A stretch of DNA of 64,000 nucleotides from Malaciobacter molluscorum LMG 25693 (GTDB lineage Bacteria > Campylobacterota > Campylobacteria > Campylobacterales > Arcobacteraceae). Location of the stretch: the NCBI RefSeq assembly GCF_003544935.1, contig NZ_CP032098.1, forward strand, positions 2,542,001 through 2,606,000. The letters are read 5' to 3'. The notes under the pieces were generated by a model. That model had not been told where the DNA came from. It searched no databases and saw nothing but the letters and a program-made list of their open reading frames with translations. A program made the translations under genes and the position numbers. This document shows positions 22,880-30,406 of the stretch, piece after piece (position 1 is the first letter of the stretch; each line of letters opens with the position of its first letter).

Positions 22880-22968
22880 TGGCAGTGAGTGAGGGATTCG
22901 AACCCTCGGAGGCGTGAACCTCGCCGGTTTTCAAAACCGGTACTTTCGACCAACTCAGTCAACTCACT
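22880..22968 (-). tRNA. tRNA-Ser (TGA)
   Basis: An 89-nt type II tRNA with a long variable arm. Acceptor AGTGAGT/ACTCACT, anticodon stem CCGGT/ACCGG with loop TTTGAAA giving TGA, T-arm GAGGGTTCGAATCCCTC, discriminator G73 and an encoded CCA. Confidence 0.96.
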
Positions 22969-22983
22969 ACAACAATAAAAAGA

Positions 22984-23071
22984 TGGTGCGAATGGTGAGA
23001 ATCGAACTCACACTCCCAAAACGGGAACGGGATTTTAAGTCCCGCGCGTCTACCAGTTCCGCCACACTCGC
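22984..23071 (-). tRNA. tRNA-Leu (TAA)
   Basis: An 88-nt type II tRNA. Acceptor GCGAGTG/CATTCGC (one G-T pair), anticodon stem GGGAC/ATCCC region with TTAAA giving TAA, T-arm GTGAGTTCGATTCTCAC, discriminator A73 and an encoded CCA. It is first in the tRNA transcript, 15 nt before tRNA-Ser. Confidence 0.96.
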
Positions 23072-24973: not shown

Positions 24974-24998
24974 ATAGTATAGCATTAGGCTATACTAT
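24974..24998. terminator. Terminator between ilvD and the phage cassette
   Basis: A 10-bp stem (24974-24983 with 24989-24998, loop ATTAG) immediately follows the ilvD stop and overlaps the last codons of the convergent endolysin gene. It may serve both directions. Confidence 0.65.
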
Positions 24999-25663
24999 AT
25001 ATATTTCTCAATTTTCGCAAAGTGTTGTCTTCTTTTTTCATAAGAATTTGTATATCTATTTATAACTGCAGTAACTTTATCTACTGTTTTTAAATCTTTT
25101 CCTAAATCTGCTTTTTTAAAAATATCTTTCCATATCCAAAATCCAAGCCCTGCAGCCAAAGTTCCTTCTAAAGTATTTATATCATCACTATTTAAAATAT
25201 CAATGTTTAAATTTTTTATATATTTGTCAATTCTTTTTTGAACTTCTAAATAGTTCGCTTTTCCAGTAATCTGTAAAGCTCCGGCACCTCTATATTTCCA
25301 ACCATCATAGCTATTTATATCACCATTTCCTAGTCTATTCGCATAAGCAATACTTGCTATCATCTTTTCATTTGCACTATGCATTTCATTTCTTCCATAC
25401 TTTTTTGCAAAATCATTATTTCGAAAAGATTTAAATAGTTTTGGTAAAACCTCTTCACTATAATTTAAATTTTCAAATACTGGTTTAAACTCATCTCCTA
25501 TTTCTTCTCTTACTTGAGCTAAAAAATGAGCCAATCGTAAAGAAGTATCTACTTTAAAATCACAAAATGCACTTTTTAACAAATATTCAATTTTATATAT
25601 ATTTTCTATTTTTGTTTTAGGAAAAAGTGTTTTTATCATCTCTACACTATTTAAATAACTCAC
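24995..25663 (-). CDS. GH19 chitinase-like phage endolysin
   Basis: At 222 residues this is a single-domain glycoside hydrolase 19 lysozyme. Recognisable motifs are LRLAHFLAQVREEIG (first catalytic Glu region), ANRLGNGD, YDGWKYRGAGALQITGKANY and AAGLGFWIW, the usual phage/chitinase GH19 signature. It would cleave peptidoglycan, reaching it through the holin encoded just upstream (its start overlaps the holin stop by 4 nt). There is no signal peptide, as expected for holin-dependent release. It is the last gene of the phage-derived run and appears intact. Confidence 0.9.
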   Translation of the reverse strand: MSYLNSVEMIKTLFPKTKIENIYKIEYLLKSAFCDFKVDTSLRLAHFLAQVREEIGDEFKPVFENLNYSEEVLPKLFKSFRNNDFAKKYGRNEMHSANEKMIASIAYANRLGNGDINSYDGWKYRGAGALQITGKANYLEVQKRIDKYIKNLNIDILNSDDINTLEGTLAAGLGFWIWKDIFKKADLGKDLKTVDKVTAVINRYTNSYEKRRQHFAKIEKYI

Positions 25664-26058
25664 TGTTTTGCCTTTTTTCTATTTACACTCTCAATAAATC
25701 CTCCACCAAAATAAAAAGATACAATAGCTAACATAATCTCACCTAACCACATTTTATTTGCAAAATCCAAAGCTTTTTGAACATTATTTATATCTACCCA
25801 ACCATACAATGCTGCAAAAACTCCATTTACCATAATAAATAAAAATACAATTGTAAAAAGTAAAGCCAAATATCGTTGTGCTATTTTGAAAGGAGCATAA
25901 GCGCTGATTAAATCAATCTTTGCTTTTGTTTTTGCTTCTATTAACTTTGCTTGATTTTCTGTCTTTTCTCCTTCACTTGTCCAAGCATCATCTATTAAGT
26001 CTAAACCTTTTTTTATAACTTCACTATTTCCAAAAATTGAAGATAAAATTTCTAACAT
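25660..26058 (-). CDS. Phage holin (3TM-type)
   Basis: The 132-residue protein has a charged N-terminal half (KGLDLIDDAWTSEGEKTENQAKLIEAKTKAKIDLISAYAPFKIAQRYLAL) followed by two to three membrane helices (FTIVFLFIMVNGVFAALYGW; MWLGEIMLAIVSFYFGGGFIESV). This layout matches the 3TM holin family (DUF3154-like) found next to lysozymes in tailed phages. It would permeabilise the inner membrane and release the GH19 endolysin that follows. Directly downstream of the small coiled-coil membrane protein (adjacent start/stop). Confidence 0.8.
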   Translation of the reverse strand: MLEILSSIFGNSEVIKKGLDLIDDAWTSEGEKTENQAKLIEAKTKAKIDLISAYAPFKIAQRYLALLFTIVFLFIMVNGVFAALYGWVDINNVQKALDFANKMWLGEIMLAIVSFYFGGGFIESVNRKKAKQ

Positions 26059-26367
26059 TTATGCTCCTTTTTCTAAATGATTGATTATTCTACTTATACT
26101 CTTTTCCAAAGTATCAAATCTTCTATCAATATGTTTTTCAAATAATTCAAACTCTTTTCTTCTTAAATAAACTTCATCTGCTCTATTTGTCGTCAGATAT
26201 TGTTTTCTTTGAGTTTGTAGTTGGACAATATCTTCAGAGTGTTTATCTGCTCTTTTAAATAAAGAATCAATTTGCTTTTTAAACTCTGCATTTTGATACT
26301 TGTTTACTGCAAATTGAGCTATAAGGCCACAAATAACAACAGCTAAAGATATATACCAACTTTGCAT
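26059..26367 (-). CDS. Small phage protein: N-terminal membrane helix plus coiled coil
   Basis: The 102-residue protein has one N-terminal membrane helix (WYISLAVVICGLIAQFAV) and a long charged helix (QIDSLFKRADKHSEDIVQLQTQ ... LFEKHIDRRFDTLEKSISRIINHLEKG). Its layout resembles an inner-membrane spanin or another lysis-module accessory, and it sits next to holin and endolysin, but no family signature decides it. No outer-membrane spanin lipoprotein is visible beside it. Confidence 0.55.
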   Translation of the reverse strand: MQSWYISLAVVICGLIAQFAVNKYQNAEFKKQIDSLFKRADKHSEDIVQLQTQRKQYLTTNRADEVYLRRKEFELFEKHIDRRFDTLEKSISRIINHLEKGA

Positions 26368-26375
26368 AAAAATTC

Positions 26376-27314
26376 CTAGTATTTAATGCAATACATCATT
26401 GCTACGTTTCTTGGTCTTGTTTCAGTGCCACCTCCTGAAGGGTCCATAGGGAAATACCATGCATCAGAAGCATTTGCATAATTAGATACAGCATCAAACG
26501 GACCATCTTTACCATATCTTGCAAGAAATGAATTATTCCCCCTAATAGTATGGGTATGATTTTTTAATTGTTCATCTTGATAATTACCTATATTTCTATC
26601 TTTATCAACACCTCTTCCATTATCAAAACCTCTTATAAATTCACCTCTTAAATCAGGAAGATTAAAAGTTGTAGTTTTATCTCCACCTCCATAAGTTGTA
26701 CCTATTACTTTAAAAAGTTCAGAATATTTTTCTCTTGAAACTTCTGAACCATTACACTCTAAAAATCCAGAGGGAATAGTTGCAACTGGGTTAATAAGAA
26801 TAAATCCAGTTGGTACAGTAAATTGATTTAAATTTTCTTTTGTTGGAAGATTTTCTAATTTCTCTTTTAACTCTTTTGTAAAGTGTTTTAACTCATTTGT
26901 TTCAGCAATATTACTTAAATCAAGAGTTGATAAATCTTCTTTATTTTGTTTGATAAAATTTACAATTTCTTGTAATTCATCTAAAGTTGTGTCATCACTT
27001 GCTAATACTGTTTTTATTGCTTCAATTGCTTCTGAAACAATCTTTACTTTCTCAGCTAATACTCTTCCTTGATTTGCACTTAATGGTGCATCTGCAAGTG
27101 TTGATAATAAGTTATCAACAATATCAGAAACATTTACTTTTAAATCTAAAGCTTCATCCAAACCTATAATCTTTGAAGAGTCAATATTTTCTAAATCAAC
27201 TCTATTTTGTTTAACACAAAGGTCAATCTCTTTTAAACTCTCTAAACTAGTATCACTTGATAATAATAATCTTACATTATCCACTAAATTTTCTACAACA
27301 TTATCTGCTGCCAT
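26376..27314 (-). CDS. Phage tail fibre with tail-collar domain
   Basis: Residues about 1-160 are helical and contain phage-fibre repeats of the type [LA]SDDT[TS]LDELQEIVNFIKQN, plus LSTLADAPLSANQGRVL. The C-terminal part is a classical phage tail-collar domain: PVATIPSGFLECNGSEVSREKY, LFKVIGTTYGGGDKTTTFNLPDLRGEFIRG, LKNHTHTI, and the terminal ETRPRNVAMMYCIKY. Such proteins form distal tail fibres that contact the host. The N-terminal module is about 83% identical at DNA level (by eye) to the fibre gene just upstream, so the two are paralogues with different heads. A 50-bp block shared by both genes precedes each of them. Confidence 0.9.
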   Translation of the reverse strand: MAADNVVENLVDNVRLLLSSDTSLESLKEIDLCVKQNRVDLENIDSSKIIGLDEALDLKVNVSDIVDNLLSTLADAPLSANQGRVLAEKVKIVSEAIEAIKTVLASDDTTLDELQEIVNFIKQNKEDLSTLDLSNIAETNELKHFTKELKEKLENLPTKENLNQFTVPTGFILINPVATIPSGFLECNGSEVSREKYSELFKVIGTTYGGGDKTTTFNLPDLRGEFIRGFDNGRGVDKDRNIGNYQDEQLKNHTHTIRGNNSFLARYGKDGPFDAVSNYANASDAWYFPMDPSGGGTETRPRNVAMMYCIKY

Positions 27315-27363
27315 TTTTTTTCCTTTTATTTTTAACTTATTTAAGCTATTTGCTCACCTTATA

Positions 27364-27387
27364 AAACATAGCTTTTAAGCTATGTTT
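27364..27387. other. Strong hairpin between the two fibre genes
   Basis: An 11-bp perfect inverted repeat (27364-27374 with 27377-27387, TT between). It lies 76 bp past the end of the DGR-like fibre gene and 50 bp before the collar-fibre ATG. No T-run follows on the minus strand, so it is not a standard terminator for the upstream gene. It could be a leader hairpin, or a structure analogous to the inverted repeats found beside DGR variable regions; I cannot decide. Confidence 0.6.
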
Positions 27388-27404
27388 ATGCCTTTTTACA
27401 CCAA

Positions 27405-27454
27405 AATTATAAGAAAAAAAGAGTGCATAAAACAGTTACTTTTTTTCAAATTTT
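27405..27454 (-). repeat. Direct repeat copy A upstream of the collar fibre, with -10 element
   Basis: A 50-bp block that matches 29060-29109 at 44 of 50 positions. On the minus strand it reads AAAATTTG-A7-GTAACTG ... TGCACTC ... CTTATAATT, with TATAAT at 27411-27406. It sits about 90 bp before the collar-fibre start, so it probably carries that gene's promoter. Confidence 0.75.
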
Positions 27455-27462
27455 TTATACTA

Positions 27463-28959
27463 TTAATTAGAACTTTTATGTTCACTAGAGAAACGACAAC
27501 CAATGTTCCAATACATATTCCAAACATAACTGTTCCAATTTGAGGCACGCGACCCCGCAATCATACCATTGGCCCGGCCACCGCCCAATACCACCGCAAC
27601 AGGTGCATTTGCTGTTGCATATATTTGACCTCTATTCTCTGTATTATTTTTCCAAGAAAATGATGTTGTACCATATCCATTTGTTAAATCATTACCCCAA
27701 ATCCACTGCGTACCTGATGCTTGTTCAATACCCCATTTTGATGTAAGGTAATCATAATGCTCAACAGTAGCACCATCACCATCAACTGCACTTGCATCAA
27801 CGCCTTCTTGCACGCCATATGCAATTGTTTGAAATTCTGCATAATCAATAAGTTGTTTTGCGTTTGCTTTTGCTATTTCACAAGCGTGAAACCATTTAAA
27901 ACTTTCATATGTTAAAGTATTATCTCCACCAAATTCAAGTGGTATTTTTGGATATTTTCTACCATTTGTTAATGTACCACCTGCAATTGTTGTAAGTGCT
28001 TTTGATGTTCCATTTGTGATATGTTCACTATTACATAGATAAATGTCATACCATTTATCTTTTATAAAAACCATACCTTTTGGTGAAGCAACAGGTCTAA
28101 ATTTTAAATCCCAAAAAGAATAAGCGTTAATCCCTCTAATTTGTGCCATATCAGCTTCTGTTTTATTTCCTGTTGCAATTTCTGTATGACCTATTAAACC
28201 ATAGTGAAAACCACCAATTAATCTATCTTCTGTTTTTTTCTCATTTGCACTTAAATAAAATGTTCCATCTTTTTTTGCATATACAACATAATCTGTCCCT
28301 GCTATTTTGCTTCCTGTATCAAGATTTGTATCTAAATCTAATGTAGTATTTAAGCTTACTTCCACTATTACATTATCAATTTTTACAGTAAAACCTTTTG
28401 GAATAATAAGACTTGATGGTGTACTTTTTATAAACAACACTTCATCAAAATTTGGTTTGTTATATACATCAATTTTAAATATATCTATTTTATTATCTAT
28501 TGTTTCAACTTTATTTTTTAGCTCTTTTGTAAAATGCTTTAACTCATTAGTTTCTGCAATATTACTTAAGTCTAGTGTGGATAAATCATCTCTATTTTGT
28601 TTGATAAAGTTTACAATCTCTTGAAGCTCATCTAAACTTGTATCATCACTTGCTAATAAGGTTTTTATTGAGGTAATTGATTCTGAAATAATTTGTATTT
28701 TTTCATCTAATACTCTTCCTTGATTTGCACTTAAAGGTACATCACTTAGTGTTGACAATAAATTATCAACAATATCAGATATATTTACTTTTAAATCAAA
28801 TTTTTTATCAAGTGTTTGTTCATCATAAGCACTTAAACTTTCAATTCTTTTTCTATTTTCTTTTATATAATTAACAATATCTTGTAATTGATCTAAACTT
28901 GTATCATCACAAGATAAGATACTTGATAGTGTTTCATTTAATACTTGCACTAATGCCAT
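27463..28959 (-). CDS. Tail fibre with C-type-lectin-like C-terminus; probable DGR target protein
   Basis: The 498-residue protein has three parts. Residues 1-150 are the fibre module shared with the collar fibre (SLDQLQDIVNYIKEN, SDVPLSANQGRVL, SLDELQEIVNFIKQN). Residues about 165-300 are a beta-rich linker. Residues about 300-498 resemble the C-type-lectin/FGE-sulfatase fold of Mtd-like receptor-binding proteins: GMVFIKDKWYDIYLCN, FKWFHACEIAKANAKQLIDYAEFQTIAYG, GTQWIWGNDLTN. The C-terminal ~45 residues (AVVLGGG, NGMIAGSRASNWN, WNMYWNIGCRFSSEH) match the variable-region layout of DGR targets. Base composition changes sharply there. AAGGA precedes the ATG. No reverse transcriptase or template repeat is visible, so whether it still diversifies is unknown. 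Confidence 0.85.
   Translation of the reverse strand: MALVQVLNETLSSILSCDDTSLDQLQDIVNYIKENRKRIESLSAYDEQTLDKKFDLKVNISDIVDNLLSTLSDVPLSANQGRVLDEKIQIISESITSIKTLLASDDTSLDELQEIVNFIKQNRDDLSTLDLSNIAETNELKHFTKELKNKVETIDNKIDIFKIDVYNKPNFDEVLFIKSTPSSLIIPKGFTVKIDNVIVEVSLNTTLDLDTNLDTGSKIAGTDYVVYAKKDGTFYLSANEKKTEDRLIGGFHYGLIGHTEIATGNKTEADMAQIRGINAYSFWDLKFRPVASPKGMVFIKDKWYDIYLCNSEHITNGTSKALTTIAGGTLTNGRKYPKIPLEFGGDNTLTYESFKWFHACEIAKANAKQLIDYAEFQTIAYGVQEGVDASAVDGDGATVEHYDYLTSKWGIEQASGTQWIWGNDLTNGYGTTSFSWKNNTENRGQIYATANAPVAVVLGGGRANGMIAGSRASNWNSYVWNMYWNIGCRFSSEHKSSN
27490..27600 (-). other. Putative DGR variable region (VR)
   Basis: The last codons of the fibre gene encode AGSRASNWN and WNIGCRF, the usual DGR variable-region frame. 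In the 60 nt from 27600 to 27541 (20 codons) I count 39 G/C and only 6 A on the coding strand, with codons such as GCG, GGC, CGG, GGG and TCG that are scarce elsewhere in the window. Immediately upstream the gene returns to ordinary AT-rich codons. Adenine depletion is what template-primed adenine mutagenesis would leave. Confidence 0.7.
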
Positions 28960-29059
28960 ATGCTTTTCCTTTTTTCTTTTTATAATTATTGAGACTAATA
29001 TCTCACCTAAATAAAACTCACTTTCTAGAACAGTTTGTTTTAATCCCTTTCAACTCTCA

Positions 29060-29109
29060 AATTATAAGAAGAATCAAGTGCATAAAATAGATACTTTTTT
29101 TCAAATTTT
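29060..29109 (-). repeat. Direct repeat copy B upstream of the DGR-like fibre, with -10 element
   Basis: Matches 27405-27454 at 44 of 50 positions, including TATAAT on the minus strand (29066-29061) and the TGCACTT and A7 tracts. It lies about 100 bp before the fibre ATG, directly after the small ORF that follows the Mor-like gene. Likely promoter of the fibre-lysis run. Confidence 0.75.
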
Positions 29110-29111
29110 AT

Positions 29112-29261
29112 TTATAATTTTGAGAGTAATTCCTCCTCTTCTTCTTTTGTTGCTTTCGCACATTTTACTTTTTGAACTAACTTTTTATCTATATAAACAA
29201 TTTGATTTATATAGCTATTTTTTTGTTTTGTTTTTTTATTTTGATTTTTTTTATTTTCCAT
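29112..29261 (-). CDS. Small 49-residue basic/acidic protein overlapping the Mor-like gene
   Basis: ATG at 29261 overlaps the end of the Mor-like gene (stop at 29251) in another frame, suggesting translational coupling. The product begins MENKKNQNKKTKQ, has a hydrophobic stretch INQIVYI, and ends in an acidic helix EEEEELLSKL. I recognise no family. No independent ribosome site is visible and A-rich sequence can give such frames by chance, so it is tentative. Confidence 0.35.
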   Translation of the reverse strand: MENKKNQNKKTKQKNSYINQIVYIDKKLVQKVKCAKATKEEEEELLSKL

Positions 29262-29538
29262 TTTTTCTTATCTCATCTTCCACATCTTGAATTATTTTAT
29301 ATATAGCTCTAGGGCTTAATTCTAACTCTTGACTAAATAATTTCACAAATTTACATTTTTTATCTTTTTGTTGTAAAAGATTTATATGTCTTTTTACAAT
29401 CTCTTTAATTCTAAATGTTTTATGTGCTTTTTTAGGTATTTTTATATCTATACCACCAAATACTTCACAAACTTTAAAAGCTGTCTCTTCTCCTAGTTCT
29501 TCAACTAGTAATTCATATGTATTTACTCTTATTGACAT
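29251..29538 (-). CDS. Mor-like phage transcriptional activator
   Basis: About 95 residues from the ATG at 29538; an earlier in-frame ATG at 29559 abuts the operator region and has no ribosome site, whereas a weak GAAGA precedes 29538. The layout matches the Mor/C middle-late activators of Mu-like phages: LVEELGEETAFKVCEVFGGIDIKIPKKAHKTFRIKEIV (dimerisation part with FGG.x.I.IPK), then a helix-turn-helix FSQELELSPRAIYKIIQDVE. It is divergent from the S24 repressor across a 145-bp operator region and points toward the fibre and lysis genes, which it presumably activates (inference). Confidence 0.8.
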   Translation of the reverse strand: MSIRVNTYELLVEELGEETAFKVCEVFGGIDIKIPKKAHKTFRIKEIVKRHINLLQQKDKKCKFVKLFSQELELSPRAIYKIIQDVEDEIRKNGK

Positions 29539-29563
29539 GTTTTCTTCTTTTATTAGCATTTTA

Positions 29564-29660
29564 ATTACTATAATAGTAATTTAATTAATATTTTAATAGT
29601 AATATTATTTCCATAAAAGATTACTTAAATAGAAATTATGTTACTATTTATTTTGGTAAT
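29564..29660. promoter_or_regulatory. Operator cluster between the Mor-like gene and the S24 repressor
   Basis: A perfect 17-bp palindrome, ATTACTA-TAA-TAGTAAT (29564-29580), is followed by further half-sites: TAGTAAT at 29597-29603, GATTACTT near 29619-29626, TTACTA at 29641-29646 and GGTAAT near 29655-29660. The palindrome lies just upstream of the Mor-like gene and the last sites just upstream of the repressor start. This is the layout expected for binding by the repressor encoded alongside. Confidence 0.65.
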
Positions 29661-29683
29661 ATAATGACTAATAAGGAGATTTG

Positions 29684-30406
29684 ATGCAATTTAGTAGTAA
29701 TCTTAAATTCTATAGAAAGCAAGCAAACATATCACAAGGTGCTTTAGCACAAAAAGTTGAGGCAATTACAGGGAAAAATACAACATATGAAAATATAAAA
29801 TCATGGGAAAATGGAACAAATGTAAAAATAAGTGACATCTATGCACTTGCAGAAGCTTTAAACATTCCAGAACAATTACTTTTTGATAACTCTGAAAAAA
29901 CATTACAAAAAATATCAAAATATCAAACTATACAAGCAAATAATGAAGATTTTATTTTTAATACAACAGATGAAGATAGTTATAGTATAGAAGTTTATAA
30001 TGGAGCAGTTGGAGCAGGAAGTGAAGGTGTTATAGAAGAGAGTAATACAAAAAAAATAAGAGTTAGTAAAGCATTTGTTTTGGATGCAAATATAAAACCT
30101 GAAAACCTTATGATGTTTAAAGTTGTAGGAGATAGTATGGAGCCAACTATTTCTATGAATGACTGGGTAATTATTGATATGGCAAATGGAAGAGAGTTTT
30201 ATGAAGTTGATGGAATATACTTAATAAATATTGATGATACGATTCAAATCAAAAGATTACATTTTAGAGGGACAAAAGGTGTTGATATAATTTCAGATAA
30301 TAAAGAATTCCCTAAACTAAATAGTAAAGATGATTGCGATAGAGTAACTATTCTTGGAAAATTATATACACATATAAAAATAGGTTCAGGATTGGCTTTA
30401 AAATAA
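29684..30406 (+). CDS. Phage CI/LexA-like repressor with S24 autoprotease domain
   Basis: I use the ATG at 29684, which has AAGGAG 5 nt upstream, rather than the TTG at 29681. Residues about 1-70 form a Cro/CI-type helix-turn-helix (NLKFYRKQANISQGALAQKVEAITG ... NVKISDIYALAEALNIP). The C-terminal half is a peptidase S24 domain with a likely Ala-Gly cleavage site in VGAGSEG, catalytic Ser in GDSMEPT and catalytic Lys in IQIKRLHFR. Both catalytic residues are present, so RecA-stimulated self-cleavage and induction by DNA damage are plausible. It should repress the divergent Mor-like gene through the palindromic sites between them. Confidence 0.9.
   Translation: MQFSSNLKFYRKQANISQGALAQKVEAITGKNTTYENIKSWENGTNVKISDIYALAEALNIPEQLLFDNSEKTLQKISKYQTIQANNEDFIFNTTDEDSYSIEVYNGAVGAGSEGVIEESNTKKIRVSKAFVLDANIKPENLMMFKVVGDSMEPTISMNDWVIIDMANGREFYEVDGIYLINIDDTIQIKRLHFRGTKGVDIISDNKEFPKLNSKDDCDRVTILGKLYTHIKIGSGLALK

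Follow-up and report, generated by a model that had tools for sequence, protein, structure and literature searches.

The 64-kb window, meaning the whole stretch of 64,000 nucleotides analysed here, carries a chimeric tail fibre gene at positions 27463-28959 on the minus strand, present in the open reading frame list of the window as an unbroken frame of 498 amino acids. Residues 1-164 (28468-28959, minus strand) resemble a resident fibre in both protein and DNA, and residues 165-498 (27466-28467, minus strand) form an Mtd-type domain. The gene belongs to a cassette (24995-30406) located between ilvD and htrA. At one end of the cassette stands a CI-like repressor with S24 peptidase domain (29681-30406, plus strand; PF00717, 8.5e-18). 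The remaining genes lie on the minus strand: a Mor-like late activator (29251-29559; phrog_836, and PF08765 with 7.8e-5, just under the curated cut-off), the chimeric fibre, the resident collar-domain tail fibre (26376-27314; Pfam Collar, 2.8e-22, with a syntenic orthologue in genome G002), a small, weakly spanin-like coiled-coil membrane protein (26059-26367; phrog_7090, phrog_739), a holin-like membrane protein (25660-26058; phrog_9646 and a weak match to the holin family phrog_3427) and an endolysin (24995-25663; phrog_181, 2.4e-35).

A conserved cassette and a chimeric fibre

The cassette was found at the ilvD-htrA site in five genomes of Arcobacteraceae representing three genera (G000, G002, G030, G100 and G113). 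In G002, G030, G100 and G113 it occupies the same site and contains no Mtd gene, and its lysozyme-like endolysin was observed only in G000 and G002. The synonymous divergence of the cassette is about that of the flanking genes. Omega values of 0.03-0.08 (repressor) and 0.07-0.12 (Mor-like gene) place the cassette under purifying selection; its fibres evolve faster. Family searches of this genome detected no sheath, Baseplate_J, tape measure of PF10145 or Terminase_6N; a weak tape-measure match at 343666 was rejected as a chemoreceptor-like ORF. Fibres at the ilvD-htrA site elsewhere (L058, 8928-10211; L059, 8305-9444) share their front and differ in their tips. G001 has, at another site, a small element of a different kind that contains two fibres, genes of lysis type and a gene resembling a repressor (L042, 5071-11997).

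The first-pass annotation had placed the frame AGSRASNWN...WNIGCRF in a C-type-lectin-like domain of the Mtd type, and independent comparisons agree with this. The Mtd part matched Pfam mtd_2nd (1.9e-14), the tail protein family phrog_11262 (1.9e-76) and, by sequence, the Mtd entries of the PDB (5e-46), and it shares 34% identity with BPP-1 Mtd over 98% of its length. As the model of the full-length protein (498 aa) was poor over the C-terminal 85 residues, residues 165-498 were modelled separately as a monomer. The resulting model (pLDDT 90.5) superimposed on Mtd crystal structures with a Z score of 37 over 302 residues at 1.9 A. By sequence and predicted fold, the gene thus encodes a receptor-binding protein of the Mtd family, C-type-lectin domain included. 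Both its expression and the binding of a ligand are predicted.

The first 164 residues make up a fibre front, whose repeat also occurs in fibres of Campylobacter phages. Residues 12-164 share 63% amino acid identity with the neighbouring collar fibre, and the front of the gene together with its promoter region shares 75% DNA identity with that of the collar fibre over 601 aligned bases. A promoter-like box precedes the Mtd fibre (29059-29087, minus strand) and is conserved in G002, G100 and G113, each of which has one fibre with the box before it; a second copy, recognized by its sequence pattern, precedes the collar fibre (27404-27432, minus strand). Genome-wide, when up to three mismatches to a longer pattern were allowed, the 29-base pattern was found before these two fibres only. 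Between the Mor-like gene and the start of the fibre, G002 and the window have nearly identical DNA, which in G002 continues into the collar fibre. By these alignments the gene is a chimera, in which residues 1-164 and the promoter match those of the resident fibre and are joined to the Mtd domain. The direction and order of the fusion, as well as the phage group that served as the source, are inferred.

The variable region and its phage relative

The closest relative of the Mtd part (L050, 78% amino acid identity) is located on the phage contig IMGVR_UViG_3300036546_000131, the one close relative in our scan of viral contigs. The opposite end of this contig carries the remainder of the Mtd gene, Avd, a template and RT, i.e. 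a full DGR. Aligned to the template of this phage (G060), the window gene has a variable-region core of 108 nt at 27490-27597 (minus strand), equal to the template at 96 of the 108 bases. Of the differences, seven fall on the 24 adenines and five on the 84 other bases (Fisher p 0.004). Here the template is that of a relative and not the true ancestral one, which would explain both the five remaining non-adenine differences and the modest p value. The phage's own variable region differs from its own template at 6 of 24 adenines and at none of 84 other bases. As a control, 748 aligned bases upstream of the variable region, where no DGR acts, were compared. There the bias was reversed, phage adenines changing less (18 of 265) than other bases (75 of 483). 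Across related loci, adenine was involved in 207 of 221 differences between variable region and template, some pairs having been compared in swapped orientation. Differing mainly at adenines from a relative's template, the segment 27490-27597 has the signature of a DGR target and is, on this comparison, a true DGR variable region.

The earlier count of 39 G/C and 6 A between 27600 and 27541 proved exact, and this stretch is the G+C-richest 60 bases of the window. Only eight 60-mers in the 64 kb, overlapping one another, reach 39 G/C, and all of them are located here. G+C makes up 51% of the 108-nt core, compared with 27% on average over the window; the GC3 of the core is 0.53, that directly upstream 0.11, and the template and variable region of the phage have values matching the core. 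Since the phage template and variable region share the high G+C, that of the window copy was inherited from the template. The other G+C-rich peak of the window corresponds to a tRNA-Ser/tRNA-Leu pair at 22880-23071.

On the same phage contig, two separate Mtd genes fit the single DGR template (L089, 6001-6810, and L052). The L089 target, which is far from the RT, differs from the template at 12 of 25 adenines and 1 of 92 other bases. As this gene and some other Mtd genes sit far from an RT, distance from the RT is by itself no proof of a frozen state.

The order Mtd-Avd-TR-RT was common among the 41 loci examined. These include loci of Arcobacteraceae bacterium GMC9 (JAOZVJ010000018.1; L010/L100) and of two Sulfurimonas MAGs, from which it follows that DGRs occur in Arcobacteraceae and other Campylobacterota. 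In the scan of genome contigs, an alignment used as query retrieved seven loci, and a single-protein query none. According to the first-pass annotation, a DGR in Arcobacter-like bacteria is not known to have been described. As far as publications are concerned this stands, as no description for Arcobacter, Campylobacterota, Sulfurimonas or tailocins was found in the open-licence literature; as to the bacteria themselves it does not, given the MAG loci above. In a contig of Arcobacter sp. LC1 (L048, 553-5141), an Mtd fibre and Avd adjoin P2-like tail genes (Tail_P2_I, Baseplate_J, gp25).

Absent machinery and lost homing sites

The genome searched consists of a single contig of 2,800,582 bases (2.80 Mb); a plasmid missing from this assembly might still carry an RT. 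Within this contig neither a match to RVT_1 nor one to the DGR RT of the relative (G017-type) was detected, and neither the 64-kb window nor the 2.80-Mb genome contains a template or other second copy of the variable region. The earlier remark that no RT and no second copy are visible in 64 kb therefore holds and extends to the whole genome. Judging from the open reading frames of the window and the families of the neighbouring genes, no Avd or other accessory gene adjoins the Mtd gene.

In BPP-1, two elements are required for homing, the IMH and, immediately 3' of the variable region, a hairpin whose loop is GRNA (PMC3240598). Among relatives with DGRs, most variable regions end with TTCGCYTGTGACCACYTG; next comes a motif of the type GTGAGCGAAAGCGAAC, in which a stem encloses a GRAA loop. 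The corresponding end of the window gene (27463-27489, minus strand), compared with these relatives, is diverged and reads TTCTCTAGTGAACATAAAAG, and the DGR hairpin was absent after it in a motif search combined with a mismatch-tolerant stem search. This search replaced a perfect-stem finder, which misses the DGR hairpin because the stem holds tandem G-A mismatches. A hairpin was found at 21 of the 23 loci with DGR machinery and at none of the 10 without it, the criterion having been picked after the data were seen; under the stricter, first threshold of the tolerant search the counts were 9 of 23 and 0 of 10 (p 0.03). Thus RT, template repeat, adjoining Avd, and IMH with GRNA hairpin, the hallmarks of an active DGR, are all lacking in the window. 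The downstream hairpin is also absent from Mtd genes with no nearby Avd or RT at L078, L085, L086, L087 and L103, so that orphan targets may recur.

Origin of the Mtd fibre and comparison with known systems

We propose that a DGR-diversified Mtd domain was captured onto the resident fibre without its machinery and is now frozen, a reading that we hold with considerable confidence. According to this model, the gene front and promoter would be a copy of the fibre already resident in the repressor/Mor/fibre/lysis cassette, and the back half would be the Mtd receptor-binding domain of an Arcobacteraceae phage that diversified it by a DGR of the Mtd-Avd-TR-RT type. The captured variable region would hold one past product of mutagenic retrohoming, Avd, TR and RT not having been brought along; from the captured copy, the 3' segment of the IMH and the hairpin after it have been lost. 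The Mtd fibre, if expressed at all, would be a second fibre made from the resident promoter, with one frozen binding surface. The tip is likely to be fixed, because Avd, TR and RT are missing and the IMH 3' segment and hairpin are gone.

The first-pass annotation had left two possibilities: either the element acts in trans, or the receptor-binding protein was diversified at one time and is now frozen. The latter is supported by the phage relative with its DGR, the adenine signature, the absent machinery and the lost cis sites. As for the former, a phage that carries a matching DGR, whether it infects the cell or resides in it, might occasionally rewrite the variable region, whose core still equals the phage template at most positions; moreover, a single phage template fits two targets, including the distant L089. 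Against this, the genome is devoid of RT and template, the cis sites needed in BPP-1 are missing from the target, and non-adenine differences have accumulated in the window copy. The absence of RT and template from the genome and of cis sites from the target favours a frozen target over one served in trans, and we regard the latter as very improbable.

The locus could also be what is left of a DGR prophage that integrated at this site and was then reduced to its fibre and lysis end, as might be suggested by the phage-like neighbours and by a fibre-then-lysis order similar to that in which late operons of phages end. This would not account for the four other genomes, of three genera, in which the cassette sits at the same site with no Mtd gene, nor for its divergence at the level of the flanking genes and the low omega of CI and Mor; besides, the N-terminus and promoter of the Mtd gene belong to the cassette's own fibre. 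This origin is improbable and largely refuted. Alternatively, the cassette might belong to a tailocin that has its tail genes at another place in the genome, with the Mtd fibre providing an alternative target. The presence of a repressor, an activator, fibres and lysis genes in the absence of capsid genes, purifying selection and changing fibre tips would all fit, but neither a sheath nor Baseplate_J nor a tape measure of PF10145 was found in this genome (family searches that cover non-contractile tails in part), and the two copies of the promoter box, the only ones in the genome, are both at this locus. We consider a tailocin unlikely. It is conceivable, if rather doubtful, that a conserved fibre/lysis cassette devoid of recognized tail genes took up a DGR-made domain and fixed one variant for non-phage use. 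If so, bacteria would harvest the winning variants of a phage's binding-protein lottery for a purpose of their own.

Captured and frozen, as we favour, the gene would represent a DGR-diversified domain apparently separated from its retroelement and fused to another fibre, the loss of the homing sites being still legible in the DNA. Beyond this, the analysis documents that phages of Arcobacteraceae and of other Campylobacterota carry DGRs of the Mtd type, and brings to light a conserved fibre/lysis cassette with changing fibre tips.

Compared with BPP-1 Mtd, the window gene has the same domain family and fold throughout its 334-aa part and an adenine-biased variable region at the equivalent place; it differs in its N-terminal part, in lacking Avd, TR and RT, and in the loss of the IMH 3' segment and hairpin. 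With the phage contig IMGVR_UViG_3300036546_000131 it shares the template lineage, whereas the complete DGR, the Mu/P2-like tail genes and the different fibre N-terminus are found in the phage only. Like the modular collar fibres with swapped tips at ilvD-htrA, it combines a conserved front with a variable C-terminal tip; unlike in those fibres, the tip derives from a DGR target. Finally, an engineered T7 with a gp17-Mtd chimaeric fibre (LR745707, LR745708; compared on the basis of the LR745708 annotation) likewise bears an Mtd receptor-binding part on a foreign fibre front. That fusion is a laboratory construct in a phage, whereas the one described here is natural and resides in a cassette of a bacterial chromosome.
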